A DNA stretch of 47,375 bases from IMG/VR virus record IMGVR_UViG_3300028196_000023, positions 1-47,375 of that record. One strand, 5' to 3'. Position numbers and translations under genes: made by a program. This document shows, piece by piece, positions 1,722 to 29,867 of this stretch (its first letter is position 1; every line of letters begins with the position of its first letter). The notes under the pieces are model-generated. The model did no database searches. It was not told where the DNA came from and saw only the letters and a program-made list of their open reading frames with translations. This stretch comes from a virus.

Positions 1722-1923
1722 TAAAAAAATCAAATTAGAGGAAGATCCGGATTCAAAAGATTTGGTTCTTCCTATTCCCACTGAGTTATTGAACCAGATG
1801 GGATGGGATATTGGAGACGATTTAGTTTGGTCAGACAACTTCGATGGATCGTTTTCAGTTATTAAAAAGGTTGACAAATCCAATAAGAAAGCGTATAATA
1901 ACTATAATGACAATAGCAACTGA
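1714..1923 (+). CDS. AbrB/SpoVT-like small protein, possible DNA-binding or antitoxin-type fold
   Basis: The core LVLPIPTELLNQMGWDIGDDLVW followed by DGSFSVIKK matches the swapped-hairpin AbrB pattern: a strand, then P-x-x-L-L-x-x-x-G-W-x-x-G-D, then a second strand. A GTG at 1714, overlapping the upstream stop, is the likely start because it gives a compact domain of about 69 residues. The ATG at 1681 would bury 41 bases in the preceding gene. The tail is Lys- and Asn-rich. Related short proteins with a G-D-x-(L/I)-x-W signature are common in T4-like marine phages but are not functionally defined. The 3' end overlaps the queE start. Confidence 0.65.
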   Translation: MTSKKIKLEEDPDSKDLVLPIPTELLNQMGWDIGDDLVWSDNFDGSFSVIKKVDKSNKKAYNNYNDNSN

Positions 1924-2818
1924 TAAGAAATATTACTACAGCGAAATCTTTCACAGTATTCAAGGTGAAGGACACTACACAGGTGTGCCTACTGCTTGGA
2001 TACGTTTCTTCTTATGTAATTTGCAGTGTAACGGATTTGGTCAGATTGATCCTACTAATCCTGATACATATGATTTGCCGTTTGAAACATTTGATACTAC
2101 AAGTGTAAAACGTGTAGAAGATTTACCTGTATGGGACAAAGGCTGTGATAGCAGTTACACTTGGAGCAAAAAGTTTAAACACTTAATGGGTCAGAAGACT
2201 GCTGTTGAACTAGCACAGCAAATTATTGATACACTTAAAACAGATAGCAATCCAGAAGGATTGTTTCTACATCCTGTTACACAACAAAGACAACACTTTT
2301 GTGTTACAGGTGGCGAGCCGTTGATGAAGCATGGACAAGAAGCGTTCATTGGTATTATGCGTGAGTTCAAGCGTATGGGCAATATGCCTGCTAGTGTTAC
2401 ATTTGAAACTAATGGTACACAAGCATTAACACAAGAATTTATTAATTACTGGACTTATGAAGCAGATAACGAAATCGAACTGTTCTTTAGTGTAAGTCCT
2501 AAACTGTGGAGTGTAGCAGGTGAAACTGCAAAGAAGGCAATTAAGCCTGAGATAGTTGCACAGTATAGTAAGTTGTCTATAGGACAATTAAAATTTGTTG
2601 TAGGTTCCGAACAACAACAGTGGGATGAGATGGAAGATGCTCTCTCACAATTTAAGGCACAAGGTGTAAATTATCCTGTATGGGTTATGCCTGTAGGTGC
2701 TAGAGAAGAAGAACAAACAGCAACAGCCGGAGCAGTTGCTAAGATGGCATTCGAACGTGGATATAATGTAGCCGCAAGGGTACACGTATACTTGTTTGGT
2801 AATGCTATCGGAACATAA
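1907..2818 (+). CDS. queE: 7-carboxy-7-deazaguanine synthase QueE (radical SAM)
   Basis: QueE is a radical SAM enzyme that converts 6-carboxy-tetrahydropterin to 7-carboxy-7-deazaguanine, the precursor of preQ0 and queuosine; phages also use the pathway to modify DNA guanines. Seen here: the N-terminal signature YSEIFHSIQGEGHYTGVPTAW, cysteines C37 and C41 (C-x3-C), a later G-C80-D-S, and the radical SAM GGEP motif at VTGGEPLM. The ATG at 1907 gives 303 residues; an upstream in-frame ATG at 1844 lies within the preceding gene. The third cluster cysteine is displaced, giving C-x3-C-x38-C instead of C-x3-C-x2-C, and this insertion explains the extra length over typical QueE. No other deazaguanine gene is visible here. 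Confidence 0.9.
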   Translation: MTIATDKKYYYSEIFHSIQGEGHYTGVPTAWIRFFLCNLQCNGFGQIDPTNPDTYDLPFETFDTTSVKRVEDLPVWDKGCDSSYTWSKKFKHLMGQKTAVELAQQIIDTLKTDSNPEGLFLHPVTQQRQHFCVTGGEPLMKHGQEAFIGIMREFKRMGNMPASVTFETNGTQALTQEFINYWTYEADNEIELFFSVSPKLWSVAGETAKKAIKPEIVAQYSKLSIGQLKFVVGSEQQQWDEMEDALSQFKAQGVNYPVWVMPVGAREEEQTATAGAVAKMAFERGYNVAARVHVYLFGNAIGT

Positions 2819-6839: not shown

Positions 6840-7145
6840 GTGCATAGGCATTACTTCAAGCCGCCTAAACATCTAGTAGACGAGTGGCCGGAGGTGTTCA
6901 AAGATTTATATATGGACACCATGCCGGTTGCTTATGTCGAGAAGATGATTATTGAATTTACAGATGGACGTATCTGGGAAATCAATGTCAAACAACAACT
7001 AGAAAATGACGACCCGGATAATGTTGCAAAAAAGTTATTAAACTCTTTGACTGAGTATAAAGACACAATCAAAAATTTAGATTTTAAAATAGATGTTGGT
7101 TTATTAAAAGCCGATATAGCAAAAAAGACTAAGAAGATTCTCTAG
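6840..7145 (+). CDS. Conserved-type phage protein, unknown function
   Basis: This 101-residue protein starts at GTG 6840 (MHRHYFKPPKHLVDEWPEVF) just after the preceding stop. The first internal ATG would remove the strongly patterned N-terminal segment, so GTG is preferred. The middle reads VEKMIIEFTDGRIWEINVKQQ, a beta-hairpin pattern, and the end is Lys-rich. It is the last plus-strand gene. Its 3' end overlaps the opposite-strand dehydrogenase gene by 17 bases, and no terminator lies between them. Confidence 0.65.
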   Translation: MHRHYFKPPKHLVDEWPEVFKDLYMDTMPVAYVEKMIIEFTDGRIWEINVKQQLENDDPDNVAKKLLNSLTEYKDTIKNLDFKIDVGLLKADIAKKTKKIL

Positions 7146-8313
7146 TATTACCGTAATGTACAACTTCGTATGTATCCGAAGTATGTTCTCTCCAAGGATC
7201 AACTACAACACTATCATCAGTAACATCAATATACATTTCTGGATGCGCAAGAAGAACTACTGCTCTATAAGGTCCTTTGTCAGGTCCATACACTAATGGA
7301 TCAATTTTCATTGGATTATATCCGTATTCATAACAGTATTGTGAAACCAGTAATGCATAACTTCCGTCAACATAAGGCACACCTGGTTTATAAGCAACAC
7401 CATTTATTAAAATAGGAAGTTCTTTTTCTTTTGCAATTTCACAGAGTTTGGTTGCAATATTTTGTGCTTGTACTTCTCTAGCATTCATAATTGCATCAAA
7501 GATATCATAACCTAAATCTAATTTTTTAGCCATATAGCGTAATGCTATATTATCTCTAGGATGGCATGCGCCGCCATCTCCCATTCCTGCTTTCATATAT
7601 GCAGAACTGGTAATTCTTTTTGTAGCGTTAGATAATGCATCAGTAACTTTATCAACATTAATGTTGCCTTGTCTCTCAGCAACATCTTGCATCATGTTTA
7701 CTAATCCAATCTTAGTTGAAATAAATGTATTGTAGAATACTTTTATACATTCACATTCGTCCCAAGTTCCAATTTCATACTTAGGATTGTTTTCCATTAT
7801 TGTGTGATAAAATCTTACAAGTTCAATAGCATCACCTGTAGCACTTCCGTCATCAGTTCCAATCATTACTATATCTGGATTTACCATATCCCAAGCAACA
7901 GTTCCCATTGCAATTAAGTATGGATTGTAAACAAATCGTGTATTAGTAATGTGTTGTATAAACTCTCTGCGTACTGTACCTGGCAATACTGTGCTTATAA
8001 GTACAAGCAATTGACCTTTATTCATATGCTTGTTTGCTTCTTTAAGAACACTATGAACAATATCGTAAGAAAAATCTTTTGGTTCTAAATGTGCTGTAGG
8101 TGCTCTACCATCATAAGCAGGATCATGTGGAGTAGGAACTGCAACAAATACAATATCTCTATCCTTTACAGCATCTTGGATAGTATCTTCTACAATTACA
8201 TAATCACTATGTACTGTATCAATATCATAACCTAGTACACTATGTCCTTTTTTAGCAATTACTTCTGCACATGGCAATCCTAATTTGCCTAATCCAATAA
8301 ATCCTATCTTCAC
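7129..8313 (-). CDS. UDP-glucose/GDP-mannose dehydrogenase-family protein
   Basis: This 394-residue enzyme begins with the NAD-binding Rossmann motif GFIGLGKLGLPCAEV. It contains FVAVPTPHDP and STVLPGTVRREFI of the family's nucleotide-binding half, the helix KVFYNTFISTKIGLVN with the conserved Lys and Asn, and the catalytic-cysteine segment GACHPRDNIALRYMA, Cys near residue 248. The family oxidises a UDP- or GDP-linked hexose to its uronic acid in two steps through a thiohemiacetal on this Cys. The C-terminal domain (GVAYKPGVPYVDGS) matches the family's GxxxKPxxxD segment but is short. It is the last gene of the island and probably supplies an activated acidic sugar to the upstream glycosyltransferases, an inference from position. 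Confidence 0.85.
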   Translation of the reverse strand: MKIGFIGLGKLGLPCAEVIAKKGHSVLGYDIDTVHSDYVIVEDTIQDAVKDRDIVFVAVPTPHDPAYDGRAPTAHLEPKDFSYDIVHSVLKEANKHMNKGQLLVLISTVLPGTVRREFIQHITNTRFVYNPYLIAMGTVAWDMVNPDIVMIGTDDGSATGDAIELVRFYHTIMENNPKYEIGTWDECECIKVFYNTFISTKIGLVNMMQDVAERQGNINVDKVTDALSNATKRITSSAYMKAGMGDGGACHPRDNIALRYMAKKLDLGYDIFDAIMNAREVQAQNIATKLCEIAKEKELPILINGVAYKPGVPYVDGSYALLVSQYCYEYGYNPMKIDPLVYGPDKGPYRAVVLLAHPEMYIDVTDDSVVVDPWREHTSDTYEVVHYGNTRESS

Positions 8314-8467
8314 ATTTCTTCTCCCAATTTTGGTACAAACATATTTACAATCTTCTTATTACAGTGCATTTAAACGTGGTTTACAGCAGTATAGCGTAAC
8401 TGTAGCTCTTGGTATATAACACCGCTGTATGACGCTTAAAATGCGTTTAAGGTGCCTTAAAACTGTG
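8314..8467. other. 154-base intergenic gap with small inverted repeats
   Basis: This is the only real gap within the island. It contains a perfect 7-base inverted repeat (8446-8452 with 8455-8461), an adjacent short one around 8432-8446 (ACGC/GCGT arms), and a longer-range 6-base pair TACAGC/GCTGTA (8382-8387 with 8424-8429). No run of T follows any stem on the minus strand, so none is a standard terminator. A weak late-promoter-like TGTAAATA (minus strand, 8349 to 8342) lies about 30 bases before the dehydrogenase start. The gap may hold a promoter or processing site for that gene. Confidence 0.4.
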
Positions 8468-9619
8468 CTAGTAGTTCATAGTTTTTACTAAGTTAGTGTA
8501 CTCTTTACTAACCAAAATATCCCTATTATACTTGGCAATTTGTCTTACGCCAGGCAGCCATTGTTTACGCAGTATGGTTTCAGGTATACTACATAGTCTT
8601 TTAACTTCGTCCAAAATAGCAAGCATCCTGTTCCCTGGATCTTCTATGCTATCATATGATTCATTTATAAACGGAGCATATGTTTTGTATCCAAGTTCTT
8701 TTAGATACTGTAAACTATTTGGTGCAGTTGCTAGTATAAACGGATGACCCATTGCAATAGTTTTAAAAATTTTCTCGCTTAGGAATGGTGTATTCTCATA
8801 GTAAGTAGTTTCGTTGACTATACTAAAATATGTCTCAACGTAGTAGTCAGCAATTGTAGTTTCGTGTTCTGCTCTATTTGTTACTAAATCTTCTGTATCT
8901 AAATACATAGGTGGTAACTTCTGTATGTCTTTATTATTATCTAATATTTTTTTTATAATTTTATTATTACTATGTATGTGTTGTAATTTGTGATAAACAT
9001 TATCCCATGTCTCATTATCATCACTTGGTGCAAAACTTATATAACCAGAGTCTAATAAGTTTCTCGATTTAAGAAGTGTAATTAGTAATGGTCTATGTAG
9101 CCTCCATCTTCTATTCAAATTTAAAAACTTTTTGTTATATTTCTTTTTCTTTGGCAGTGCTATAATATTATGTCTTGCAGCATCTTGACCTGTTGCTTCA
9201 AAGCAACTAAACCAATCTACTTTTATTTCAGGTAGTTGTAATTTTTTTGCTAATTTTTTAACATGGTTACACATTGTCGGAACTGCTGAAAGAAATATTA
9301 TTTGTTCTGCTGGTATATTATGTTTGACAACTACATCTCTATAAATTGCATCTGCACACTCATAAAAATGCTCCAAGCCGTTATCTAAAACTAAAAATAC
9401 TTTCTTAGTCCTTATACGTTCTAATACGTCTGTTGGAACTAAAGTGTCTACTGCAAACATACTAAAACTATCAGCATTAGTAAATTGTATATAGAAAAAA
9501 TCTCCTTTGAAGTTTTCCTTAGAAAAGTAACCAACATTAGGTTCTATTTTTATAACTTCTTTGTCGTGCAGACTATATGTCTTTACGTATAATAAGTTAT
9601 CTGTATTAATGCAGGGCAT
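8468..9619 (-). CDS. GT10-like putative glycosyltransferase
   Basis: This 383-residue protein has, near residue 280, FSIVNETTYYENTPFLSEKIFKTIAMGHPFIL followed by LQYLKELGYKTY. This E-x-x-(x)n-(L/V)(S/T)EK-x-(F/W)K-x-I-x-x-G-x-P pattern recalls the nucleotide-sugar-binding half of fucosyltransferase-like (GT10) enzymes. An earlier FLNLNRRWRLHRPLL segment also occurs in weaker form in the neighbouring 408-aa protein. The two are paralogues lying on either side of the SGNH gene. Its start is coupled to the stop of the SGNH gene (TAATG) behind an AGGAG site. Sugar donor and acceptor are unknown, and the fold assignment is inferred from motif similarity only. Confidence 0.6.
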   Translation of the reverse strand: MPCINTDNLLYVKTYSLHDKEVIKIEPNVGYFSKENFKGDFFYIQFTNADSFSMFAVDTLVPTDVLERIRTKKVFLVLDNGLEHFYECADAIYRDVVVKHNIPAEQIIFLSAVPTMCNHVKKLAKKLQLPEIKVDWFSCFEATGQDAARHNIIALPKKKKYNKKFLNLNRRWRLHRPLLITLLKSRNLLDSGYISFAPSDDNETWDNVYHKLQHIHSNNKIIKKILDNNKDIQKLPPMYLDTEDLVTNRAEHETTIADYYVETYFSIVNETTYYENTPFLSEKIFKTIAMGHPFILATAPNSLQYLKELGYKTYAPFINESYDSIEDPGNRMLAILDEVKRLCSIPETILRKQWLPGVRQIAKYNRDILVSKEYTNLVKTMNY

Positions 9620-10383
9620 TATAATCTCCTTACATTATTAACAGACCAAAACTTTTGTGTTTCATCAAGACTTGAAATACCTCTAATTAAAGTTTCGTAT
9701 TTCTCTGCATACAACTTCATTTTTTCTGTAACAAGATTAGGGTATAAGTTTTCAAGGTACTTGTAATGTCCTATAGGAGTCGGATGGTAATCTGCTGTTT
9801 GCCCGTTGCCTCCCCATCCTCGTATCGGAGTCTGAGGCCAAACACCGTTATATACTGATTGAAGAATATCAGGCTTTACACTTTTTATAGTTTCTTTATA
9901 ATGTTCTAAAACATCTTTAAATACATCTTCTTTGCGATCATCTAAAACTACCTGATCTGTAAACTTACACATTGATAGCATGTCGCTGTCACATGTAAGA
10001 TTTTTTAGATATTGTCTAGTAAGTTCAACTAGTGCTAAATCTCTTATTAAATATCCTCTCGTGTCTGCCCATTTGTGTACAAAATCCATTTGTATGAAGT
10101 CCTGTGTGTAAATGTTTCCCGGCGTTACCCAACTATTCTTATAACGATCTTCTCTACTTACTGAAGACCACATAACTATTACAAGATCATTTTCATTAAA
10201 TTTGTGTTCTATATTTGCTTCTACTATTCCATTAGAAATGAATAAATTGCCGCCGCCGCTTTTTCCATAATTATAATACTCCGGAATTTCTTGGGATAAC
10301 ATATCTGCCCAGGTTGGCCATTCGTAATTTGTCATACTACATCCAAATACAAATAATCTTTTGTATTGATTAAATGGTTTCAT
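9619..10383 (-). CDS. SGNH/GDSL-like hydrolase or acyltransferase
   Basis: The 254-residue protein begins MKPFNQYKRLFVFGCSMTN, with the block I serine in G-C-S16-M-T. It continues with YGKSGGGNLFISNGIVE (glycine block), NDLVIVMWSSVSRED (block III region) and a C-terminal ADYHPTPIGHYKYLE that supplies the Asp and His of the triad. SGNH enzymes cleave or transfer ester-linked acyl groups, often on sugars. I choose the start at 10383, which has GGAG seven bases upstream. An in-frame ATG at 10437 would lie 68 bases inside the previous gene. It sits between two GT10-like genes, so deacylation or acylation of a glycan is a reasonable inference. Confidence 0.75.
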   Translation of the reverse strand: MKPFNQYKRLFVFGCSMTNYEWPTWADMLSQEIPEYYNYGKSGGGNLFISNGIVEANIEHKFNENDLVIVMWSSVSREDRYKNSWVTPGNIYTQDFIQMDFVHKWADTRGYLIRDLALVELTRQYLKNLTCDSDMLSMCKFTDQVVLDDRKEDVFKDVLEHYKETIKSVKPDILQSVYNGVWPQTPIRGWGGNGQTADYHPTPIGHYKYLENLYPNLVTEKMKLYAEKYETLIRGISSLDETQKFWSVNNVRRL

Positions 10384-11596
10384 AATATTTCTCCGTTCTA
10401 GCAACTGCTTCGTGTATTGCATCAGCATAAAAGTCACTGCGCCTAATTAAATCAAAATTATGCTGTATTGTATCCATACTCTTTTCTAATCTAGCAATTT
10501 TGTGAGATTCAGGTAAATCTATCCAATCGTTAATAACTTGTTGTGTTGCATTAAAGCGTTCTAGATTATCCTCTATGTCATTGTATACAGGATCTATTCC
10601 ACACCAATCTGTTCTAAATCCCATTTGTTCAAGACATCTAAGAGTTCCTTGGCTAGCAAATAGTACAAGCGGATGACCCATTGTAATAGGTTTAAATATC
10701 TTTTCAGTAACAAATGCAACATCATCAAAAAATATAGTTTCTGTAATTACTGTAAGCAGACTATTTTTATATATGTCAACGTTATACTGATTAGCAGCAT
10801 TCGTTTTACTCCAGTCTCCGTCTATAAACTTAGGAAACTCTTTCTTTATATCTTGATAGTCACCTACTAAATTTTCTGTATCTTTATCTCTAAGTGTTAT
10901 TTCATTGCCGCTTACTATTCCATTATTCAAAACGCCGTCTTTCATTAATCTATATAAGTGTGCGCCACGCTGGGGACGATATACTCTATTCAAACTATTA
11001 TAATCTTTGCTATTTGGATTTGCCATAGCATACTTTATAACAGGACTAGTAGGTAAATTTGCATCTACGAATATGTTTCCAAAGTGATTACTATACATCA
11101 TATCATACATCTTGTCAACACTTTTGTATTTTCTCCATCTTCGATATTGATGTTCAACCTTTTTATTACCCTGTAGTATTAGAACACTGTCTTTAGGCAA
11201 TTTAAGTTCTAGTATTGTATTATGTGTTGATAGAAAACAATCCCAATGTTTTGTAACCATAGGACCACCTTCTCTATCAGCATTTAATATTATCCTAAGT
11301 TTTCTTTGCTTAACTAATTTAATAATTTTCTTAGGTAAGCATCTTAAGATATGTTTGTGCGGTGTTCCTGTCTCTTTCAAAACTCCAGCCCACCACTGTG
11401 GGTCACCCCTTACGTCTATGAAATATATACCAGGTTCGGTATAATCATTTAATTGTGCAACCTGTAACCCTAGTTGACTACACTTATTTTTAATTGGTGC
11501 GCCTGGAGCAACTATCCAGTAGTCATTATCCCCTTCAAATGTTAAGTGATTTTGATTACTGTCGTTGTTTGTTAATGTGTCAAAATATACTTTCAT
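10370..11596 (-). CDS. GT10-like putative glycosyltransferase (paralogue)
   Basis: This 408-residue protein shares with the gene at 8468-9619 the core TVITETIFFDDVAFVTEKIFKPITMGHPLVL and LRCLEQMGFRTDW near residues 285-340, with an upstream YNSLNRVYRPQRGAHLYRL that aligns with the other's NLNRR segment. The pattern suggests a GT-B fold enzyme of the fucosyltransferase-like type. The N-terminal 150 residues differ between the two copies, which may mean different acceptors. The ATG overlaps the stop of the radical SAM gene upstream (TAATG). Activity is inferred; the donor is unknown. Confidence 0.6.
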   Translation of the reverse strand: MKVYFDTLTNNDSNQNHLTFEGDNDYWIVAPGAPIKNKCSQLGLQVAQLNDYTEPGIYFIDVRGDPQWWAGVLKETGTPHKHILRCLPKKIIKLVKQRKLRIILNADREGGPMVTKHWDCFLSTHNTILELKLPKDSVLILQGNKKVEHQYRRWRKYKSVDKMYDMMYSNHFGNIFVDANLPTSPVIKYAMANPNSKDYNSLNRVYRPQRGAHLYRLMKDGVLNNGIVSGNEITLRDKDTENLVGDYQDIKKEFPKFIDGDWSKTNAANQYNVDIYKNSLLTVITETIFFDDVAFVTEKIFKPITMGHPLVLFASQGTLRCLEQMGFRTDWCGIDPVYNDIEDNLERFNATQQVINDWIDLPESHKIARLEKSMDTIQHNFDLIRRSDFYADAIHEAVARTEKYYETI

Positions 11597-12789
11597 TATA
11601 TTAACCTTTTTAATTCTGGAAATGTTTCTGCAAAATCTTCGTTCCTAATTATATCATAATGTTGTGTATATTTTTTAAATTGTTGTCTTGTTACTTCATT
11701 AAACTTAGAATTGTTTATATAACTTACAACACCTTTTAGCATATTGTCAATATGCTTATTATATGTTTTGCTTTGTAGTTTTTCAATAATCTCTGTTTTG
11801 AATGTATCATCTAAAACTGATGCTGTGTAATACTCAGGATATTGTATATTATACATTTGAGGGAAATACTCTCCAATATCAAAAAATTCTTCTTCTAACA
11901 CATAATCAAAAAAGTCTGTTAATGTGTATAAGTTAAAAATACTAATAACAGTATTACTTTGCATTTTAACGTGAGGACATTCTTGTTTTATCTTTTGTAT
12001 ATTGCTTTTTATTAAATTCCAATCTGTACCAGATCTAATATATTCTGCTCTGCTACCATAATGATCTAAACTTGCGCCTATATGTACCGTATCAAAGTGT
12101 TTCCATAGCTCTAAAACGCTCTTAGACTTATACTTTAGTACACTACAGTTACTATTATACTCTAACTTAACATTTGTTTTACCTATAGAAATCAAGTGTT
12201 CTAGTATATCGTAGTGTTTATCTGTTAGTAAAGGTTCGCCGCCTGCAAAGTAAAATGTTTCAATGTCTTTAAAATATGGAAGAAATTGATTATACAACTT
12301 ATCGTTGTCATTACCATCTGCTAAAATAAAGATAGGATTCTTTTTACCTTGTGTGTTATCTTCCTGTGCCCATGTGCTAGAGTATGTACTACTGCAACTA
12401 CGACATTTAAAGTTACAGATGTTACTCCAGCGTACATCAAAATGTTTAAGATGCATTACTGGTAGCGTTCCATCATTTTCTGTGTGTGCTATTAAGCCAG
12501 TAGTATCACCATAGTATGGATTACGATTAGCATGTATTCTTGGACTTTCAGCGCCGCTGTCTTCTATGTTATAACATGCTTGACATTCTACGCAACGTTT
12601 ACCTTCAAGCATATCTTTACGCATTTGCTTGTAAGAATTATTGTTCCAAATTTCCTTAATTGTATGTTGTCTTACATTCCCTAAAGGCTCATTAATCTCA
12701 CCAACACAACAAGGTAGGACTGATCCATCTGGATTTACATACATGTGTAACCAAGGAAAAATACAAAATGTATTACTGGGCGCAGTCAA
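11596..12789 (-). CDS. Radical SAM enzyme with N-terminal Twitch/SPASM-like cysteine segment
   Basis: The 397-residue protein has an N-terminal auxiliary segment with C9, C27, C28, C66, C69 and C72 (FCIFPWLHM, VLPCCVG, GKRCVECQACYN). It then has a radical SAM core with C125-x3-C129-x2-C132 (CNFKCRSC) and the SAM-binding FYFAGGEPLL. The N-terminal cysteines in this order are typical of phage-type Twitch radical SAM proteins and probably hold a second iron-sulfur cluster. The C-terminus ends with FAETFPELKRLI, a motif shared with the neighbouring radical SAM. Such enzymes use a 5'-deoxyadenosyl radical to modify peptides, sugars or nucleotides. It lies between glycosyltransferases and overlaps the other radical SAM gene by 17 bases. 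Confidence 0.85.
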   Translation of the reverse strand: MTAPSNTFCIFPWLHMYVNPDGSVLPCCVGEINEPLGNVRQHTIKEIWNNNSYKQMRKDMLEGKRCVECQACYNIEDSGAESPRIHANRNPYYGDTTGLIAHTENDGTLPVMHLKHFDVRWSNICNFKCRSCSSTYSSTWAQEDNTQGKKNPIFILADGNDNDKLYNQFLPYFKDIETFYFAGGEPLLTDKHYDILEHLISIGKTNVKLEYNSNCSVLKYKSKSVLELWKHFDTVHIGASLDHYGSRAEYIRSGTDWNLIKSNIQKIKQECPHVKMQSNTVISIFNLYTLTDFFDYVLEEEFFDIGEYFPQMYNIQYPEYYTASVLDDTFKTEIIEKLQSKTYNKHIDNMLKGVVSYINNSKFNEVTRQQFKKYTQHYDIIRNEDFAETFPELKRLI

Positions 12790-14137
12790 AATAAAACTCT
12801 TCTAGTTCAGGAAATGTTTCAACAAAGTTTGTTCCTCTACGCTTATCATATTCTGTAAACCAACTAAAAAAATCTCTCCGGCCTTCTTGTACACGCTCTG
12901 GAGTATAATTTGTGCTAGCCATGTAATCAACTACACGTCTAAACTTCTCATATTCAAGTATACTAAATTTGTGTTTGTCTGCATCATCTAAATTTTCTGC
13001 TATAAATTGTAGGTGCTGTTTCATATAAGGCACAAATATATCTTTAGGAAGTATATTCATATCATATTGTAATGGTTCTTTTAAGTAAGGTGTATCAAAT
13101 CTAATACGTTGCCATTTGGTTTGATTATCAGTATTGTACTTTATACGCCATTCCAGAATCTTTTTTAATAGTTTACTAAAATTAGTTACGGTTAATATAT
13201 TAAACGTAATCATAAAAGTTAACGGCATATTAGTCTTTGTCATGTAAGTATCTAAGTTCTTTTCCCATAGTTCTAAATTTAAACCTGTTCTAATATACTC
13301 TGCTTGTACTCCCCATGTATCAATACTAGTAAAAATTTTAAAGTCTTTTATACATCCGTTCTTAACTAAACTGTTTACTTTATCAGTAAATCTTTCAATA
13401 AGGATAGGCTTTACACCTAGGTTAGTATTAATGTTTAGTTCTAATTCAGGACATGGATTCTTTTCTAACTCGTCGAACATACGCCACGTGCTTTGCTGTA
13501 GTAAAGGTTCGCCTCCAGTAATACGCAAAATTGTAAGTGTCTTACGCAGTTCGGGCCACCATTTCCACCAAGCCTTGACATATGGATTAGTTTCTTCATC
13601 TTTGTGTATTTCAAACCAGTCGATATCATTCCTATGATTTCTTACCATACTATAAGGACCATGTTTTTCAATCTCTTTATAGTAACTACTAGAATGTTTA
13701 GGATGACAATATCCGCATTTAAAATTACACTCATTACCAAAACTAACTTCTACATATTGCGGATTAACATCTGCCATTGGATTTTGCTTAATATCATTAA
13801 AACGTTTTGGTGTATGTATGCTTGCATTACGTTCTTTACGATCACTAATGTAATCTTTACCCATACATTCAACATTCCAACAATAGTTACAACCGCTGGG
13901 TTTCTCTCCGTTTATCATAGCCTGCCTTTCGGCTTTCTTTTGAGGTGTATTATGCAATAGACTAGGATTTTCTTCTAGTCCTTCTAGCGGAATTTTATGT
14001 GGAGCAGGATGATAACAACTGTGTGTTTCTCCTGTTCCTAAATATATAGTGGTGTGATGCCATTTAGCCAAGCAGAAGGTAGGCGATATCTCGTCCATGA
14101 TAGGTATGAATTTTTCTATCCTATCCTTATCCTGCAT
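12773..14137 (-). CDS. Second radical SAM enzyme with N-terminal cysteine segment
   Basis: This 454-residue paralogue has N-terminal cysteines C22, C41, C83, C86 and C91 (TFCLAKWHH, HSCYHP, GCNYCWNVEC), a radical SAM core with C137-x3-C141-x2-C144 (CNFKCGYC), and LRITGGEPLL. It ends with FVETFPELEEFYFDC, matching the C-terminal motif of the 397-aa protein. The two therefore share one architecture but are well diverged, suggesting they act on different substrates or successive steps. It overlaps the preceding glycosyltransferase gene by 11 bases. The product is unknown; the class and redox-cluster content are clear from the motifs. Confidence 0.85.
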   Translation of the reverse strand: MQDKDRIEKFIPIMDEISPTFCLAKWHHTTIYLGTGETHSCYHPAPHKIPLEGLEENPSLLHNTPQKKAERQAMINGEKPSGCNYCWNVECMGKDYISDRKERNASIHTPKRFNDIKQNPMADVNPQYVEVSFGNECNFKCGYCHPKHSSSYYKEIEKHGPYSMVRNHRNDIDWFEIHKDEETNPYVKAWWKWWPELRKTLTILRITGGEPLLQQSTWRMFDELEKNPCPELELNINTNLGVKPILIERFTDKVNSLVKNGCIKDFKIFTSIDTWGVQAEYIRTGLNLELWEKNLDTYMTKTNMPLTFMITFNILTVTNFSKLLKKILEWRIKYNTDNQTKWQRIRFDTPYLKEPLQYDMNILPKDIFVPYMKQHLQFIAENLDDADKHKFSILEYEKFRRVVDYMASTNYTPERVQEGRRDFFSWFTEYDKRRGTNFVETFPELEEFYFDCAQ

Positions 14138-15170
14138 TAAACTGCTCCTTTAACCAATCAAAGTCATTTATTAATCTAAGAGCATCTGGGTCAGCACTAT
14201 TAGTCTCACCATATTTCCTGCCAGCAAGAGCTCCTTGAATAGCACAATCGCCAAACGGACGGTCTTTTCCATATTCTGAACACCACCTAGCCAACCGTTC
14301 GTTAGTTTCCTGTTCGTTTTGTGCTCTTATAGTTTTACTTGCTAACTTACAGCATTCTCTAAATGCACCTTTCCACGCTTCAAACTCATTTGTATTAAAT
14401 GCTGTTATGTTAGAAAGTTCGTTAACGGCTTTAAATTTATTGCTAATACTAGTAGTCATGTCTGGTTTAGACATGTCCATGTCTAAAGTCATCTGCGTTG
14501 GTAATAATTTAACGCCACCGTATCCGTACTCTAAATCATTTACTGGATTAATACTACGCCATACATGCACAGTATACATTTCCGGGTCTTGGTAATCAAA
14601 ATTAAATTCTTCAACTATGTGTGCATCGCCATCTACTACCCAGAACATATCACTTTCAACAATTTTTGCTGCTTCTAAATGTGCTTGATGAATTCCTTTT
14701 ACGTTTGAAATTCTTTTTGCTCTTGGGAATCTACTTTTTAAACGCTGCCAATTTTTATCTGCATAAGGTTCATAGTAAGAAATAAACACAATATCAAAAC
14801 TACTTCCTATACTCCTAGGATCGCTGGCTACTATATCTATTTCTTTTTTGTTAATAAAGAATCGGAACTTGAATTCTTTGTTAGATGCTGGAGCATTCTT
14901 AGGCATAAGGGTAACACCATTAAAGTGATTGCCATTTTTGAATACATGAACGTATTCTAGGTCCCATTCAGTAGCACGATATTCAAAGTCAAAATCATCT
15001 TTTACTTTCATATCATCCCAGACTACCCAAAACATTCTGGTTAATGTCTTTTGCTTTATTTGATCTAGAGATTCAACATCTTCAATCAGTTGAGCATTAG
15101 AGAATCTAGACTTAAACTCTTGCCAGTGTTCTGCTTTGCCTTGACTGACATAAAATAAATCATAAATCAT
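14127..15170 (-). CDS. Glycosyltransferase-like protein with internal duplication
   Basis: This 347-residue protein contains two copies of one domain. Copy 1 (about residues 3-92) has DLFYVSQGKAEHWQEFKSRF, MFWVVWDD and VHVFKNG. Copy 2 (about 125-226) has DIVFISYYEPYADKNWQRLKSRF, VKGIHQAH, MFWVVDGDAHI and YGYGGVKLLP. Copy 2 keeps the V-D-x-D motif that binds metal and nucleotide sugar in GT-A enzymes, while copy 1 reads V-W-D-D and lacks the VKG..H segment. A C-terminal region (AWKGAFRECCKLA) follows. Its sister gene at 15160-16068 has a single copy. Function as a sugar transferase is inferred from these motifs and from its neighbours. Confidence 0.65.
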   Translation of the reverse strand: MIYDLFYVSQGKAEHWQEFKSRFSNAQLIEDVESLDQIKQKTLTRMFWVVWDDMKVKDDFDFEYRATEWDLEYVHVFKNGNHFNGVTLMPKNAPASNKEFKFRFFINKKEIDIVASDPRSIGSSFDIVFISYYEPYADKNWQRLKSRFPRAKRISNVKGIHQAHLEAAKIVESDMFWVVDGDAHIVEEFNFDYQDPEMYTVHVWRSINPVNDLEYGYGGVKLLPTQMTLDMDMSKPDMTTSISNKFKAVNELSNITAFNTNEFEAWKGAFRECCKLASKTIRAQNEQETNERLARWCSEYGKDRPFGDCAIQGALAGRKYGETNSADPDALRLINDFDWLKEQFNAG

Positions 15171-16068
15171 CTGTAGTCCTATAATACGTTTTTGCTAGAT
15201 CAATAGTTTGCTCATATAAGTTTAACACATATTTGCTCATAGATTCATCTAGGTATGGATAATTAAAACCAAGTTGGTTTTTTAATTCGGTTCCTAAACG
15301 TTTTACTTCTTGTTCTAATCCAACACCATCTTCATATTGTTTACATTGCTCATTGTATAATTCACGTAGTGATTCAAAATCTCTTACTTGTATATGATCC
15401 CAATCTGTGCAATTTGTAAGATATGTTCCTAGTCTTGCACCATAAACTGCAAATAGTCCATTTTCAACATGACTGCCAATTGTACTCCATATTCCTAGTC
15501 TATGTATGTTGTGCCACCATATATGCTTTTCAATTTCTTGTGGTGGAACTTTTAATCCGTTGTCTAGTGTCATCTTAACACCTTCTCTAAATCCTGCACG
15601 CCATGCCATAAACGGATTGTAATTAATTACAGTATCGCTAAAAGTCTTTGGAAAGTTTCTGTATCCTGTTTCCCAACAGAAATCTACCTGAGCTCTATCA
15701 CTATCAGCGTTCTCGTGAGTTTTCATATTTTTAACATGCTCAACATTCCACAGTTTTAATCCACCGTTGCCGTATCTTAAACCATTTACGTTATTCCTAC
15801 CGCACCAACTGTATGCTTTTATATCCGGATTGTCCATATCTATTTCAATATCAAAAAATTGTGGATACACAATATTGTCAGCATCTACAGTTAGTACCCA
15901 TTCACTTTCTGATTGTTCTGCCGCTGCTTTATGTGCATGGTCCGAACCTTTTACACCGTGTATACGTTTTGCCCATGGAACTTTATTACATAGATCTGCA
16001 TAATGAAGATCTGCATTAGGTTCATCATAACTTAAAAAGAATACATCAAACTCAATTACCCGTTTCAT
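15160..16068 (-). CDS. Glycosyltransferase-like protein (GT2-type pattern)
   Basis: This 302-residue protein starts VIEFDVFFLSYDEPNADLHYADLC, followed by AKRIHGVKGSDHAHKAAAEQSESEWVLTVDADNIV, where V-D-A-D is the probable metal-binding site. YGNGGLKLWNVE and AWRAGFREGVKMTL come next. The same ordered blocks occur in copy 2 of the neighbouring 347-aa protein, so the two are homologous. The pattern, with a glycine-rich GNGG(L/V)KL after the DXD, is typical of glycosyltransferase-like proteins of marine phages. It overlaps the 347-aa gene by 11 bases and the 214-aa gene by four. Confidence 0.7.
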   Translation of the reverse strand: MKRVIEFDVFFLSYDEPNADLHYADLCNKVPWAKRIHGVKGSDHAHKAAAEQSESEWVLTVDADNIVYPQFFDIEIDMDNPDIKAYSWCGRNNVNGLRYGNGGLKLWNVEHVKNMKTHENADSDRAQVDFCWETGYRNFPKTFSDTVINYNPFMAWRAGFREGVKMTLDNGLKVPPQEIEKHIWWHNIHRLGIWSTIGSHVENGLFAVYGARLGTYLTNCTDWDHIQVRDFESLRELYNEQCKQYEDGVGLEQEVKRLGTELKNQLGFNYPYLDESMSKYVLNLYEQTIDLAKTYYRTTDDL

Positions 16069-16709
16069 CTTTCCTCAATCATATAGTTTTTAAATAAGCG
16101 TCTTGTATATACGCTAAAGAATCTGTTTATATTAAGTTGTTTAAGTTCAACTTTGTTACCAATCAGATCATTAATTGTTACGCTAAAATTATCAGTTACA
16201 ATATTAGGATCATTATATTCTGTAATTGTAAAATCAAGTTGTGTTTCACCATTCCAAAACATTTTTCTTTTTACAACATCAATTCCTTTTTGTTGTTTGT
16301 ATGTTCCACCAAATTCTTCACTAAGTTCTACAGACAATATATTTGTTTTAGCATTGTGTTCTAAATAGATGTCTGGTTTTTTAATCTCTGAATATTTTCT
16401 AACAATAATTCTATGTAGTACATCATCTATTTTATACAAATCTCTTCTTTCAACAATTTCTAATTCGCCTTGGTCAGGATCGATAAAACATTTACTCATA
16501 CTAATTTCGCTAGATATAATTTTTTCAGCAATATCTGCTTCAAGAGGTATAACATTTTCAAACTCTTTTTCGTTTACAGTATGATCTGGACCTACAGATA
16601 ACACACGACCTGTTTCAATATCAAATGCTGCATTATATATCACAGGCTTATGCTTGTAATTTGCAATCCATTCGTCGAAATCAGGAATTTCTATTTGTTT
16701 TTCTGCCAT
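16065..16709 (-). CDS. Unknown protein, embedded in the glycosyltransferase operon
   Basis: This 214-residue protein starts MAEKQIEIPDFDEWIANYKHKPVIYNAAFD and is mostly predicted beta-strand, with TGRVLSVGPDHTV, SMSKCFIDPDQGELEIVERRDLY and LSVELSEEFGGTYK. It has no DXD, no cysteine cluster and no membrane segment. I do not recognise it. It overlaps the preceding glycosyltransferase by 19 bases and the following one by four, so it is translated with them. A structural or carrier role, perhaps as a modified substrate or an accessory to the transferases, would be guesswork. Confidence 0.6.
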   Translation of the reverse strand: MAEKQIEIPDFDEWIANYKHKPVIYNAAFDIETGRVLSVGPDHTVNEKEFENVIPLEADIAEKIISSEISMSKCFIDPDQGELEIVERRDLYKIDDVLHRIIVRKYSEIKKPDIYLEHNAKTNILSVELSEEFGGTYKQQKGIDVVKRKMFWNGETQLDFTITEYNDPNIVTDNFSVTINDLIGNKVELKQLNINRFFSVYTRRLFKNYMIEER

Positions 16710-17536
16710 GCTATTTCCTCCAAAATGTTCACTGTCTCAAGTGTAACTGTTTCTTTATTAACATAATGAACTATATCGGTTTGTTCAAAGTTACCAAGTT
16801 TTAATTTTCCTTGTTTGTTTAAATAAAATCCTATATGATCGTAGCAATCATCTGCACCGTATGGCCAATTCTGTATCATGCCCTTCATGTGTACTACTCT
16901 AGGAAATTCTAAAGGATATGCAATCTCATCAGTAATATCTAATATTTTTGATGCTAGTGCAAACGCTTCATCTGTACCTACAATATTTGGTTTGTGTTTT
17001 GCTAAAAAATTATTAGCATACAATTCAGGGTTTTTAATAATTTGTCTTTGTAAATTAAAAAACTCTTTTGCCATTGAACTGTTTTTAACAAAGAATGTAT
17101 AGAAAGAATATAAATTAGGTAATTCATTTGCTGTAAAGCATTTTCTATAGTAATCGCCAGTAACTATATCACCTCTATATGTATATGCTTTATTTGCAAT
17201 ATATAATTCACTATTCTTAATAAAGTATTCTGCCCAGTGACTGTAATCTCTTAAGAATAACATGTCTGCATCTAAACAAATAGTAGTATCCCATGGAGTA
17301 AGTTCATCCATATATGATCTACCATCCCAGTGTACTGCGCCGTCCCATTCTATTATTTCATCAAATACCCAGGTTGATGTATAACCTTCTATCCTTGTTT
17401 TATCATTTATAACTAATGCTACTTTATCAAAGCCTTCTTTCTGTGTGTTCTTAATACTTAATGCAAGAGTATATGCTAATTTAGCATAGTTAGATGTATC
17501 AGTATCGTTAACAATAATTAAATATCCAAACGTCAT
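16691..17536 (-). CDS. Glycosyltransferase-like protein with DXD motif
   Basis: This 281-residue protein carries TTICLDADMLFLRDYSHW near residue 92, a D-A-D followed by an aromatic/hydrophobic segment as in GT8-like and related GT-A transferases. It also has a C-terminal VVHMKGMIQNWPYGADDCYD, a pattern with the His used for metal or substrate binding in that fold. The N-terminal part (YLIIVNDTDTSNYAKLAYTLALSIK) looks like the first Rossmann-like strand and helix. It shares layout with the 288-aa gene upstream. It overlaps that gene by four bases and the 214-aa gene by 19. Donor and acceptor unknown. Confidence 0.7.
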   Translation of the reverse strand: MTFGYLIIVNDTDTSNYAKLAYTLALSIKNTQKEGFDKVALVINDKTRIEGYTSTWVFDEIIEWDGAVHWDGRSYMDELTPWDTTICLDADMLFLRDYSHWAEYFIKNSELYIANKAYTYRGDIVTGDYYRKCFTANELPNLYSFYTFFVKNSSMAKEFFNLQRQIIKNPELYANNFLAKHKPNIVGTDEAFALASKILDITDEIAYPLEFPRVVHMKGMIQNWPYGADDCYDHIGFYLNKQGKLKLGNFEQTDIVHYVNKETVTLETVNILEEIAWQKNK

Positions 17537-18399
17537 TGTGCCAACTCCATAAGGTTATCATAGTTTCTCATAATACTAAACTTATTCATTACATGCACAT
17601 CTTTATTACTAACGCTAGTAGCAACATAATTATCACTGTTATTTTGCGCAATTAAAAATTTTAATTTTCCTTTAGAAACATCAACTAACATATCTTTGTC
17701 TGCTGTTGAAAAAATATCAGGCAAGTTAGGTTCATCTGTCTTTTGATAGCCATTCATTATGTGTCTTGCAATACTAAATGCAATATCGTTTCTAAAAATA
17801 ATTGGATTAAATCTATAGATATCGCTGTACATTTTATATTTTTCTTTTACATGTGCCACTAAGTCAAAAAATATTTTAGTAGTTTCATTCTTTGTAAACA
17901 TTACAGTAGTTGCCCATAACATTTCTATACCTGTTTCAGAAATATGTGTATCAAGATATCCTACTCTTTCAGAGCCTTGTATATCATTATACTTAGAACT
18001 TATTAATAAATCTTCATTAACTTCCCAATAATTAGATAATGTGTCTGTCAAAGTAAGGTAGTCACTATCTATCATTAAAGTTCTATCGTACGGTGTTAAA
18101 TCCCAAACACTACATCTATTACCATTAGTGAAAGGAGCATGCACCCTATTTTTTCCGTCATTGTAATTTTTTACATTATTTGTATCGTCTGGTCTTTCTG
18201 TTATAATAATATTATCGAATGTTTCAGTTACTGTTTTTTCAATATTAGACTCTTTCATCCAATCAATTGTAGATGGATCAGTAACTAGTGATACAGGAAC
18301 TTGTAAATTTTTGTTTGCTAATTTTGCCGCAAGTATGCTCATGCGGATATAATCAATCTGCCGATTATTGTGAGCAAATATTATTACACCTTTGCTCAT
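17533..18399 (-). CDS. Glycosyltransferase-like protein with DXD-type motif
   Basis: This 288-residue protein begins GVIIFAHNNRQIDYIRMSILAAKLA and contains RTLMIDSDYLTLTDTL near residue 126. I-D-S-D-Y-L matches the DXD position of GT-A fold transferases and aligns in layout with the LDADMLFL of the next gene. A VHVMNKFSIM segment near the end resembles the C-terminal His motif of the same fold. It is probably a second sugar transferase in the same pathway. Its start overlaps the stop of the 116-aa gene (TAATG), so it is the second gene after the late promoter at 18779-18786. Confidence 0.65.
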   Translation of the reverse strand: MSKGVIIFAHNNRQIDYIRMSILAAKLANKNLQVPVSLVTDPSTIDWMKESNIEKTVTETFDNIIITERPDDTNNVKNYNDGKNRVHAPFTNGNRCSVWDLTPYDRTLMIDSDYLTLTDTLSNYWEVNEDLLISSKYNDIQGSERVGYLDTHISETGIEMLWATTVMFTKNETTKIFFDLVAHVKEKYKMYSDIYRFNPIIFRNDIAFSIARHIMNGYQKTDEPNLPDIFSTADKDMLVDVSKGKLKFLIAQNNSDNYVATSVSNKDVHVMNKFSIMRNYDNLMELAQ

Positions 18400-18749
18400 T
18401 AAACTTCCAATAATGTTTCTACAGATCTTGCCTTTTTAATTTTTTGGTATTCTTCCAAATATGTAAAGGTTGCTGAAAAGTATCTATCAAATACTTCATC
18501 TCTAAATTTTGTTAAATCTTCAATTAATATTGGATTGTCGTTCGTATCAAGTAGAACTACATTTTCTCTTCTAGATTTAAAAATTAACATTTCAACAAAG
18601 TTTAATAATGATCTGTCAATTTTAAATATGCCGCCATTAACTCCGTAGGTTAACTGTGCGTCAATTTTTTCTTTTAGTGTTTTCCTTTGGATAGCAAATG
18701 ATTGTCTGTAATTAGCAAACTCAAGTGCTTTATCTAATTGTTCCTGCAT
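18399..18749 (-). CDS. Conserved-type phage protein heading the island operon
   Basis: This 116-residue protein has a helical N-terminus (QEQLDKALEFANYRQSFAIQRKTLKEK), then QLTYGVNGGIFKIDRSLLNFVEMLI, VVLLDTNDNPILIEDL and FDRYFSATFTYLEEYQKIKKAR. I recognise the pattern as an uncharacterised protein of T4-like marine phages found next to tail genes, not a transferase. The start at 18749 has an AGGAG site and is downstream of two late-promoter-like elements. Its stop overlaps the start of the first glycosyltransferase, so the whole island appears to be transcribed from here. Confidence 0.7.
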   Translation of the reverse strand: MQEQLDKALEFANYRQSFAIQRKTLKEKIDAQLTYGVNGGIFKIDRSLLNFVEMLIFKSRRENVVLLDTNDNPILIEDLTKFRDEVFDRYFSATFTYLEEYQKIKKARSVETLLEV

Positions 18750-18758
18750 AATATCTCC

Positions 18759-18766
18759 TATTTATT
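18759..18766 (-). promoter_or_regulatory. Late-promoter-like element (AATAAATA), probably too close to the start
   Basis: On the minus strand the sequence reads AATAAATA, only nine bases before the ATG at 18749. With T4 spacing, transcription would start at or just upstream of the ATG, past the AGGAG site, so it is less likely to be functional than the copy at 18779-18786. Confidence 0.25.
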
Positions 18767-18778
18767 ATAGTAGCATAT

Positions 18779-18786
18779 TATTTATC
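18779..18786 (-). promoter_or_regulatory. T4-type late promoter (GATAAATA) for the modification island
   Basis: On the minus strand this reads GATAAATA, 29 bases before the ATG at 18749. It lies in the only gap between the tail block and the island and matches seven of eight consensus positions. It predicts late expression of the island genes. A 7-base inverted repeat (18781-18775 with 18754-18748) overlaps it and the start codon. Confidence 0.6.
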
Positions 18787-18813
18787 GGTATTTGTGTTGG
18801 TGGGGAAAATTTA

Positions 18814-19824
18814 TTAGTTTACAATTGTTCCGATTGTAACAGTAGGTGTTAATACTTCAAAGTTTCCAGAGGCTGTTGGTTCCAAAACGCCTGATGCTTT
18901 GACTGTTTGTACTGTGAGTGAAATAGTACCATCTACTGTATCCGGTCCTAGTACTCCTGATTGTACAGGAGTTCCTGAATCTGAGTCTCCTCCAAGTGGA
19001 AAGTGATTGTCAAGCCAATATAGAAAGAATCTTAATTTTCTTGAAGCGCCTGCACTGTTACTAGATACTGTGGGTGTATCATTCGTTTGTACTGTAATCT
19101 TAAATTCATTCAATGCATAAGGACTTGATGCAGTAGAAGTACTCCATGTATCTGCTGTGTTTCTTGCTCTGAACCAATTTTGTCCATTAGATGGTGTTGT
19201 TCCTGTTCCTGGGGTATTGGCTCCAAATATTCTTGTACCAGCAGTACTTAATAAAGTTGTCCAACTTGTATTTTGTGCAGATGAACTTCCGCCTGTTCTT
19301 GTACTTGTAAATTGTATACTGCCGCCTGCGTTAAAAAAGTGTCTTGCTTGTTCACTAGTAGTCCATTCAACATCAACTTGGCATGATAATTGTGGCGACG
19401 GTGAACCTAAAGGTGCTGATGAACCCCATGCACTACTAAAATTTGTTGTTCCGTGATTTACTGTTACACGTTGTCCACTAACTGCTAATGCTAGTCTGTT
19501 TGTACTTATAGAATTTACTACACTTGCCCAATAACTTATAGGTGCAGCATCTGGTGGTGCACTATCAAACCTTACTGTTGCGCCAATTGTTTGTGCATCT
19601 ACATCAGGTGGTAAACTATTAAATAAATGTTGATAAGCGTTAATTATATCAAAACGTAGTGCTGCGTATTCGTTTACAGTAACTGAATTTGATTCATCAA
19701 CTTGGTTGCTTAGAACAGGCTGTCCATATCCAAAATTACTAGTACCTGTACCCAAGATAGTATTAATATCACTTTGGACACTGTTATAGTCAACTTTTCT
19801 AATTTTTTGGTTTACACCTGCCAT
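18814..19824 (-). CDS. Structural protein, fibre/tail type (paralogue of 294-aa protein)
   Basis: This 336-residue protein starts MAGVNQKIRKVDYNSVQSDINTILGTGTSNFGYGQ. It contains VTVNEYAALRFDIINAYQHL, the segment EQARHFFNAGGSIQFTS and a C-terminal VDGTISLTVQTVKASG. All these blocks recur in the protein at 19857-20741. The protein is rich in Gly, Ser, Thr and Asn with beta-strand patterning, as in virion surface proteins, and the family is widespread in T4-like marine phages as a structural component. It follows a perfect late promoter at 19840-19847 and a GAGGT ribosome binding site. Its exact place in the particle is unknown. Confidence 0.7.
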   Translation of the reverse strand: MAGVNQKIRKVDYNSVQSDINTILGTGTSNFGYGQPVLSNQVDESNSVTVNEYAALRFDIINAYQHLFNSLPPDVDAQTIGATVRFDSAPPDAAPISYWASVVNSISTNRLALAVSGQRVTVNHGTTNFSSAWGSSAPLGSPSPQLSCQVDVEWTTSEQARHFFNAGGSIQFTSTRTGGSSSAQNTSWTTLLSTAGTRIFGANTPGTGTTPSNGQNWFRARNTADTWSTSTASSPYALNEFKITVQTNDTPTVSSNSAGASRKLRFFLYWLDNHFPLGGDSDSGTPVQSGVLGPDTVDGTISLTVQTVKASGVLEPTASGNFEVLTPTVTIGTIVN

Positions 19825-19839
19825 TTTTTACCTCACAAG

Positions 19840-19847
19840 TATTTATA
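19840..19847 (-). promoter_or_regulatory. T4-type late promoter (perfect TATAAATA)
   Basis: On the minus strand this is a full match to TATAAATA, in a 32-base gap, 16 bases before the ATG at 19824. With T4 spacing the transcript would start near 19834 and include the GAGGT ribosome binding site. It is the clearest late promoter in the window. Confidence 0.8.
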
Positions 19848-19856
19848 ATAGCAGTA

Positions 19857-20741
19857 TTAGGCTACACTAATTGCTGATACAGTAGTACTACTTGGACCAT
19901 TCACTGTAAAAGTACCTGATGGTGCTAATATTCCTGCTGCTTGTATTTTGTTTACATCGATTGTTAATTTACCGTCTACCAAATCACCTGGAGGTGGTGA
20001 TCCTGGATCTACATATGTATCTGCTAGATTTACTTGTATTACTACCTGGGTGGCTGTCCCTGCACTATTATTTGCAACATCGCATTTTGCTTTCAGATTG
20101 TATGTGTTGCCACTATACGGAGTGCTTGCTGCCTTTGAAAAATATGTTTGATATGAATTAGTTAATGTGTAATATCCTGTTGCTGCTATCAAATCGCCTG
20201 CAAAATCTTGTGGTGCAATTGAAGATAAAACAGTTGACCAAGCATTTGCTTGTGCTGTAGTTCCATTTACATGACTTGTTTCTACTCTGATTGCTCCGCC
20301 ACTATTAAAAAAGTGTCTACCATCTTCTGCAGATGCAAAATCAATTGTAATAGTACAAGTTGCTGTGCTACTCCAAGTTGCTGTTGTTAGTTTAGTATCA
20401 ATTGAAGTTTGAGAAAATTGTCCTGTAGCAACGTCAAATCTATTGTTTCTTAATAAGTCAGCAAAATAATCGTAGTTTTGATATGCACCACTTGCATCAT
20501 CATTTATAGTATCTCCTGTACTAACAGTAATTGCACTTGGATTATTACCTGTTTGATGAACGTAAGCATTTACAATATCAAATCTTACAGCATCCCATTG
20601 AGACTTTTGAATGATTGTTCCTGATGTAATAGCAGAACTATAAACTGTTTGGCCATAGCCAAAAGTTGTAGCACCTGTACCTAGGACATCAGTAATTTTT
20701 TGTCTGATTGTGTTTATGTCACTGGCTCTGATGTTGGCCAT
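19857..20741 (-). CDS. Structural protein, fibre/tail type (paralogue of 336-aa protein)
   Basis: This 294-residue protein shares ordered blocks with its downstream neighbour: ASDINTIRQKITDVLGTGATTFGYGQ, WDAVRFDIVNAYVHQ, EDGRHFFNSGGAIRVETS and VDGKLTIDVNKIQAAG. The two are clearly related by duplication, with divergence concentrated in the middle. Composition (Ser, Thr, Asn, Gly; few charges) fits a beta-rich virion protein. The start codon overlaps the stop of the 580-aa fibre gene (TAATG), so it is co-translated with it. No enzymatic motif is seen. Confidence 0.7.
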   Translation of the reverse strand: MANIRASDINTIRQKITDVLGTGATTFGYGQTVYSSAITSGTIIQKSQWDAVRFDIVNAYVHQTGNNPSAITVSTGDTINDDASGAYQNYDYFADLLRNNRFDVATGQFSQTSIDTKLTTATWSSTATCTITIDFASAEDGRHFFNSGGAIRVETSHVNGTTAQANAWSTVLSSIAPQDFAGDLIAATGYYTLTNSYQTYFSKAASTPYSGNTYNLKAKCDVANNSAGTATQVVIQVNLADTYVDPGSPPPGDLVDGKLTIDVNKIQAAGILAPSGTFTVNGPSSTTVSAISVA

Positions 20742-29859: not shown

Positions 29860-29867
29860 TATTTATT
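29860..29867 (-). promoter_or_regulatory. T4-type late promoter (AATAAATA) overlapping a stop codon
   Basis: On the minus strand GAATAAATA includes the TAA stop of the giant gene (29865-29863). It predicts initiation near 29854 and places the ATG at 29834 in the right position, so it supports that start. It is the same arrangement as at 22507-22514. Confidence 0.55.

Follow-up and report, generated by a model that had tools for sequence, protein, structure and literature searches.

A tail-linked operon of glycosyltransferase-like and radical SAM proteins in an uncultured T4-type virus, with a possible role in glycosylation of the phage's own tail

Serotype conversion by the gtrABX genes of temperate phages needs two membrane proteins, GtrA and GtrB. 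Pelagimyophages, which are marine T4-like phages, carry glycosyltransferases, cassettes with radical S-adenosylmethionine (SAM) enzymes and a UDP-glucose dehydrogenase, partly in a variable island beside the tail fibres (PMC7029224). Particles of the Xanthomonas jumbo phage XacN1 contain at least two glycoproteins (PMC5852040), and the glycans of mycobacteriophages, according to Freeman et al. 2023 as cited in PMC12619734, are located on the capsid and on tail-tube C-termini. In phage T4, the late transcripts of e, soc, 49 and I-TevI start inside a hairpin at the ribosome-binding site and so escape it (PMC3014915, PMC2988022). The window described here is the whole of a 47,375-base IMG/VR record of an uncultured virus (IMGVR_UViG_3300028196_000023), and the locus in question is an operon of twelve minus-strand open reading frames (ORFs; 7129-18749) situated behind its tail genes. 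The operon is concluded to be real, widespread, locked to the tail genes and late-controlled. The function proposed for it, which we hold to have an even chance of being correct, is late glycosylation of tail-fibre or adhesin proteins made by the phage itself. Its parts are known in kind, while their combination and their fixed site behind tail genes in a large uncultured phage group are new as far as the literature and databases searched show.

The baseplate wedge protein of the window was found to be nearest (33-36% identity) to those of the jumbo phages Phosso, Atu_ph07 and SCTP-2 and of Rak2-like phages of enterobacteria, Pseudomonas and Xanthomonas, and on this basis the window was assigned, as a fragment, to a large T4-type myovirus rather than to a classical pelagimyophage. 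Members of this baseplate wedge family also occur in the Xanthomonas jumbo phages XbC2 and XaC1. The operon genes, in order of transcription, are h116, GTf, GTe, h214, GTd, GTc, rSAM2, rSAM1, GTb, the SGNH gene, GTa and ugd; these and the promoter, leader and tail-gene features (T336, T294 and T580) given below are on the minus strand. The ORFs and their ends agreed with those of a preliminary description of the sequence, which had reported twelve genes with short overlaps and one gap. Neighbouring genes overlap by 1-19 bases, apart from 10370-10437, where GTb overlaps an upstream GTG start of the SGNH gene. This GTG is not conserved, and in alignment the SGNH homologues begin at MKxF, approximately 18 codons after the called start, which leaves an overlap of about 14 bases. 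The sole gap inside the operon (8314-8467, 154 bases) lies ahead of ugd. At the far flank of the island, an exonuclease gene (exo), kept in relatives, follows a further radical SAM gene that is QueE-like (1844-2818, plus strand; phrog_2076, 5e-53).

The operon was absent from the isolates tested: a near-identity DNA search of 50,697 phage records and tblastn searches with GTd, rSAM2, GTb and GTf were both without a match, and the matches to rSAM1 were of only ~22%, to radical SAM proteins of Vibrio phages and to one marine single-cell virus. Scans of IMG/VR with single operon genes returned 132 to 482 related stretches, among which the order T580, T294, T336 (tail genes), h116, GTf, GTe, h214, GTd, GTc, rSAM2 was almost invariant. 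Tail genes of the same direction were present at 51 of the 52 distinct GTd loci with 6 kb of upstream sequence, and rSAM2 lay downstream at 70 of 71. An artefact of near-identical contigs was considered, and only distinct GTd sequences entered these counts. The preliminary description had set linkage to tail genes against random scattering in related phages, and linkage is what the relatives display. The tail-linked order was also mostly kept in contigs binned into bacterial metagenome-assembled genomes (MAGs), at 42-51% identity to GTd, assigned to Neomarinimicrobiota, Rickettsiales, Gammaproteobacteria and Rhodobacteraceae. These are probably phage contigs in bins, and the bins consequently say little about the host.

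Within this arrangement, a constant core (h116, GTf, GTe, h214, GTd, GTc and rSAM2) was distinguished from a distal module (rSAM1, GTb, SGNH, GTa and ugd). In approximately 30% of the pairs of loci whose rSAM2 is at least 90% identical, identity in rSAM1, GTb, SGNH and GTa falls below 65%, with ugd and exo staying high. This pattern indicates cassette exchange between conserved flanks; the distal half is a swappable sugar module. The distal module of relatives was found to contain an NDP-sugar 4,6-dehydratase (5e-49), a DegT aminotransferase, an NTP-transferase, B12-binding radical SAM enzymes and 2-oxoglutarate (2OG)-Fe(II) oxygenases. A 216-kb relative (G001) has many radical SAM profile matches, and more GTa-like genes located away from its tail locus.

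Eight of the twelve operon proteins form four paralogue pairs upon profile-profile comparison (hhalign, with profiles built from 15-30 homologues per protein). Three of these pairs account for the six proteins that had been described as transferases, none of which gave a convincing match to Pfam, PHROG or PDB sequence profiles. Folds were predicted by modelling, because the Pfam and PDB profile searches of these proteins and of the SGNH protein had produced nothing convincing. With Foldseek, the AlphaFold2 (AF2) model of GTd (15160-16068; predicted local distance difference test, pLDDT, 84) matched the GT-A enzymes cellulose synthase, RmlT and the PBCV-1 capsid transferase (E values down to about 1e-5), and that of GTb (10370-11596; pLDDT 94) matched BshA, SdgB and PimB'. 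Whole-chain template modelling (TM) scores were modest (0.3-0.45), and therefore the models support a GT-A fold for GTd and a GT-B fold for GTb as classes, and not a substrate specificity. GTc (14127-15170) is homologous to GTd (4e-42) and GTa (8468-9619) to GTb (1e-38). GTe (16691-17536) and GTf (17533-18399), homologous to each other (1e-14), are putative glycosyltransferases by this homology and an invariant DxD motif only (LDADM in GTe; D111/D113 in GTf), with a weak match of GTe to phrog_1903. At its N-terminus, GTc repeats its catalytic domain in a truncated and degenerate form that is kept across relatives, and stand-alone bacterial proteins (Parvibaculum, actinobacteria) resemble GTc. 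Two further core proteins are h116, a conserved 116-residue protein encoded by the first gene (18399-18749), and h214 (16065-16709), which evolves fast outside a strongly conserved C-terminal FSVYTRRLFKNY block seen in alignment.

Two auxiliary-cluster radical SAM enzymes had been proposed, and one of them is recognised by profile. rSAM1 (11596-12789) matched SPASM (9.5e-15) and Radical_SAM (5e-8) in Pfam, with the SPASM domain at residues 9-72. The canonical position of this auxiliary domain is C-terminal; here it is N-terminal, and its nearest PDB sequence-profile match is BtrN (2.8e-6). rSAM2 (12773-14137) matched Radical_SAM below the cut-off (7e-5) and is assigned by its homology to rSAM1 along the full length (2e-46), the fourth paralogue pair; its N-terminal auxiliary-cluster region (C22, C41, C83, C86) is assigned through this homology only. 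The CxxxCxxC core reads CNFKCRSC in rSAM1 and CNFKCGYC in rSAM2, with the cysteines invariant in alignments. The product of ugd (7129-8313) is, on solid grounds, a UDP-sugar dehydrogenase as first described: it matched the UDP-glucose/GDP-mannose dehydrogenase family in Pfam (UDPG_MGDP_dh_N 2.7e-20, and 1.2e-17) and UDP-glucose dehydrogenase in PHROG (7e-94), the Rossmann, central and catalytic cysteine regions were all matched, and its translation carries the catalytic cysteine context GGACHPRD. SGNH hydrolases are characterised by blocks I (GxS), II (G), III (N) and V (DxxH). The SGNH-like hydrolase or acyl-esterase of the operon (9619-10437, with the real start probably near 10383) has FGCSxT, GxGN and DxHP conserved across homologues and was without a match in Pfam and PDB profile searches, so that the label given to it is putative and by motif.

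The preliminary description had placed a T4-type late promoter ahead of the operon. The promoter class was borne out, as NATAAATA occurs within 60 bases upstream of 6 of the 33 window ORFs against 0.2 expected, and the sequence in front of the operon, 37 bases upstream of the first start codon, is GATAAATA (18779-18786) and not TATAAATA. An exact TATAAATA is present upstream of T336 (19840-19847); as a motif it was rejected, being rare in relatives, with NATAAATA the right motif by enrichment. In four relatives, NATAAATA was found upstream of 18, 16, 11 and 6 ORFs (1.2, 0.5, 0.3 and 0.2 expected). It precedes T235, T580, T336 and h116, is present in 57 of 70 distinct h116 leaders, and was not found in the 154-base gap of the window. 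A gp55-like late sigma factor was identified in 7 of 11 longer relatives (1e-13 to 1e-14), the window itself being a fragment. Late control of the operon, claimed from the outset, is accordingly supported at the level of its sequence signals. This bears on a further reading, in which the operon would hypermodify the phage DNA with sugars. DNA is a frequent target of phage glycosyltransferases, which are numerous in jumbo phages; against this, the operon is under late control and linked to tail genes, and thymidylate-synthase-type base-modification genes were present in only 1 of 12 records, a weak point as the records are fragmentary. DNA modification is considered highly improbable on account of the late control and, weakly, of these few base-modification signs.

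The leader of h116 (18750-18813) forms a hairpin in many relatives and a weak one in the window. In those relatives, the loop contains TAAATA, with NATAAATA in the loop or 5' part, and the Shine-Dalgarno sequence is located in the 3' arm. Folding of h116 leaders gave a mean z of -2.1, with 55% below -2 compared to 4-14% of control leaders. When arms were swapped between lineages, 5' arms paired less well (-8.6 kcal/mol) than with the 3' arm of the same leader (-12.6 kcal/mol; permutation p=0.0005). The hairpin was rejected as a terminator of the tail operon, because its stem ends in the Shine-Dalgarno sequence, no T run follows and the arms co-evolve. An Rfam search of the window returned no match. 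The conserved leader may instead be a protein-binding palindrome.

The tail genes next to the operon supply candidate acceptors. T336 (18814-19824) is a Ser/Thr-rich tail-locus protein (25% S+T) linked to the operon, and its homologue T294 (19857-20741) has a Ser/Thr-rich conserved C-terminus (37% S+T in the last 22 residues of the family vs 22% overall). T580 (20741-22483) is a tail-fibre protein by PHROG, with a chaperone-like C-terminus (Peptidase_G2 3.5e-5, just below the cut-off). At the position of T336, some relatives (L202, L066, L064, L119) encode much longer versions, of ~650 to more than 900 residues, which suggests gain of adhesin domains at the gene adjoining the operon. Further upstream, the window encodes a 4,645-residue virion structural protein (29863-43800; phrog_10938), with counterparts of 13-14 kb in Phosso and Atu_ph07. 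Once divergence of the core was accounted for, that of T580 still followed the divergence of GTa, SGNH and rSAM1 (partial r 0.36-0.47; permutation p 0.003); GTc and ugd gave no such relation.

As to the compartment, none of the twelve operon proteins has a membrane segment or a signal-like N-terminus, and undecaprenyl-phosphate transferase (PF00953), flippase (PF01943) and GtrA (PF04138) were not found in 12 records of relatives (~1.07 Mb). This lack of membrane and lipid-linked machinery, the co-variation with T580 and the gene content of the same slot in Phosso and Atu_ph07 (described below) support a cytosolic protein acceptor, most likely a tail protein. The glycoproteins in XacN1 particles, and the baseplate wedge family shared with XbC2 and XaC1, also speak for tail glycosylation. 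The main rival to it is that, late in infection, the operon remodels a host surface glycan (the core or O-chain of lipopolysaccharide, LPS), so that progeny are kept from readsorbing and superinfection is prevented, with the tail linkage reflecting co-inheritance of receptor-binding and receptor-changing functions. O-chain modification is the published reading of the glycosyltransferases in the pelagimyophage cluster (PMC7029224), and co-variation with a tail fibre fits a receptor-escape system as well. The missing flippase, polyprenyl transferase and GtrA, in the operon and the 12 records alike, argue against it, and late-only control, as the leaders imply it, is no less in keeping with virion assembly. 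Several points weigh against tail glycosylation in turn. The T580 coupling is suggestive, as shared ancestry was only partly removed and the exo control comprised 7-14 loci. Pairing within the leader of the window is poor (z -0.6) and the hairpin is weak in its clade, so that only the promoter part is supported for the window phage. Cytosolic transferases without membrane segments can act on the LPS core at the inner membrane surface. Since they can do so, and since LPS loci typically include ugd and DegT enzymes, modification of the host surface is retained as a viable reading, though one judged rather unlikely.

The slot behind the T580-like fibre has a different content in the cultured Sinorhizobium phage Phosso and Agrobacterium phage Atu_ph07, where several radical SAM genes, of which Phosso has four, stand beside a gene with a C-terminal tag like that of a ribosomally synthesised and post-translationally modified peptide (RiPP). 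As in the window, this cassette follows the baseplate wedge, the giant structural protein and a T580-like fibre, forms a co-directional operon and is rich in radical SAM genes. Unlike the operon, it is without homologous transferases, ugd and h116, its radical SAM enzymes are of another subfamily, and it encodes the tagged protein and a cupin. Homology of the Phosso cassette to h116, GTd or GTe was tested and rejected. The tag, CHxSCHxSCHxSR(G/S)RR, is carried by Phosso gp289 (L248:25415-26335) and by an ORF of the Atu_ph07 record (L268:2521-3411), and was identified in 143 ORFs from at least 115 IMG/VR loci (L253-L372). It is invariably located at the extreme C-terminus, exactly 16 residues from the end, of proteins that otherwise differ. 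One of two radical SAM families lies nearby at 97 of 111 tag loci and a T580-like fibre within 4 kb at 64 of 109; a 248-residue partner and the cupin are also recurrent. The cassette appears to encode its own substrate, and the arrangement resembles RiPP-type maturation of a protein of the virion; no printed description of the tag was found in the literature searched.

Since radical SAM enzymes are paired there with a RiPP-like tagged protein, those of the window could likewise act on a peptide, with the transferases then glycosylating the modified residue to give a glycosylated RiPP-like tail. The neighbourhood of radical SAM genes and a CHxSCHxSCHxSRGRR-type C-terminus in the slot of relatives, and the placement of rSAM2 in the constant core outside the sugar module, are in keeping with this. 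It is held to be quite improbable, as the tag was not found in the window or its near relatives and the BtrN to which the rSAM1 SPASM domain is nearest is a dehydrogenase of a sugar-like alcohol. In the pelagimyophage HTVC008M, ugd is the only one of the window families with a homologue, far from the tail genes, and the slot after the tail genes is occupied by 2OG-Fe(II) oxygenases. The contents in Phosso and Atu_ph07 make the slot seem meant for tail tailoring. More broadly, and tentatively, the post-fibre position could be a dedicated tail-tailoring slot of a marine and rhizobial phage superfamily, in which chemistries that differ from phage to phage would be directed at the tail proteins of the phage itself: a glycan pathway of several transferases and radical SAM enzymes in the window, the cassette with the RiPP-like tag in many marine phages as well as in Phosso and Atu_ph07, and perhaps 2OG oxygenases in pelagiphages. 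Such a slot would allow enzyme swaps to alter particle chemistry as O-antigen loci alter bacterial serotype.

The operon, its enzyme classes, tail linkage and modularity, the promoter class and the hairpin of relatives are computational results; from these we infer substrate, sugar chemistry and timing in the window phage, for tail glycosylation, as follows. A short glycan would be built and attached to tail-fibre or adhesin proteins in the cytoplasm prior to assembly, with the core proteins (h116 to rSAM2) responsible for priming and first transfers. The distal module, in whose place relatives have other sugar genes, would add outer, strain-specific sugars; within it, ugd would furnish a uronic acid, rSAM1 a radical oxidation or rearrangement, and the SGNH enzyme a trimming of acyl groups. 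The NATAAATA promoter would tie expression to the late phase. In many relatives, the hairpin, by masking the ribosome-binding site, would silence transcripts reading through from the tail genes, and these alone, since late transcripts would start inside it. Should this be true, ocean phages would commonly have sugar-coated tails, a trait so far overlooked, and a large uncultured group among them would possess virion-decorating pathways as complex as bacterial surface-glycan loci. The reading of metagenomes for host range, evasion and particle stability would change, and the operon would supply transferases and radical SAM enzymes whose acceptors are soluble proteins. The existence of cultured relatives (Phosso, Atu_ph07 and XacN1) makes the target of glycan genes in marine T4-like phages directly testable.

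Compared to T4 e, soc, 49 and I-TevI, many relatives of the window have the same placement of promoter motif and Shine-Dalgarno sequence in the hairpin, and their late transcripts would likewise lack the 5' arm; they differ in that a biosynthetic operon of twelve genes is controlled, in that the hairpin is weak in the window clade, and in being known from sequence alone. The gtrABX systems share phage glycosyltransferases with the window, whose operon was not found to encode membrane proteins of the GtrA or GtrB type. The host-recognition cluster of pelagimyophages has in common with the window a marine T4-like setting, glycosyltransferases, radical SAM enzymes and UDP-glucose dehydrogenase. 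That cluster is a non-syntenic island of T4-like kyanoviruses between VrlC and gp14, whereas the core described here is highly syntenic and stands beside a baseplate like that of Phosso, Atu_ph07 and Rak2. Virion glycosylation in mycobacteriophages and XacN1 also involves phage-encoded transferases, with sugar seen on their structural proteins, while the window is known from its genes. XacN1 has two transferases (PMC5852040); the window combines six transferases, two radical SAM enzymes, ugd and the SGNH protein in a single tail operon.

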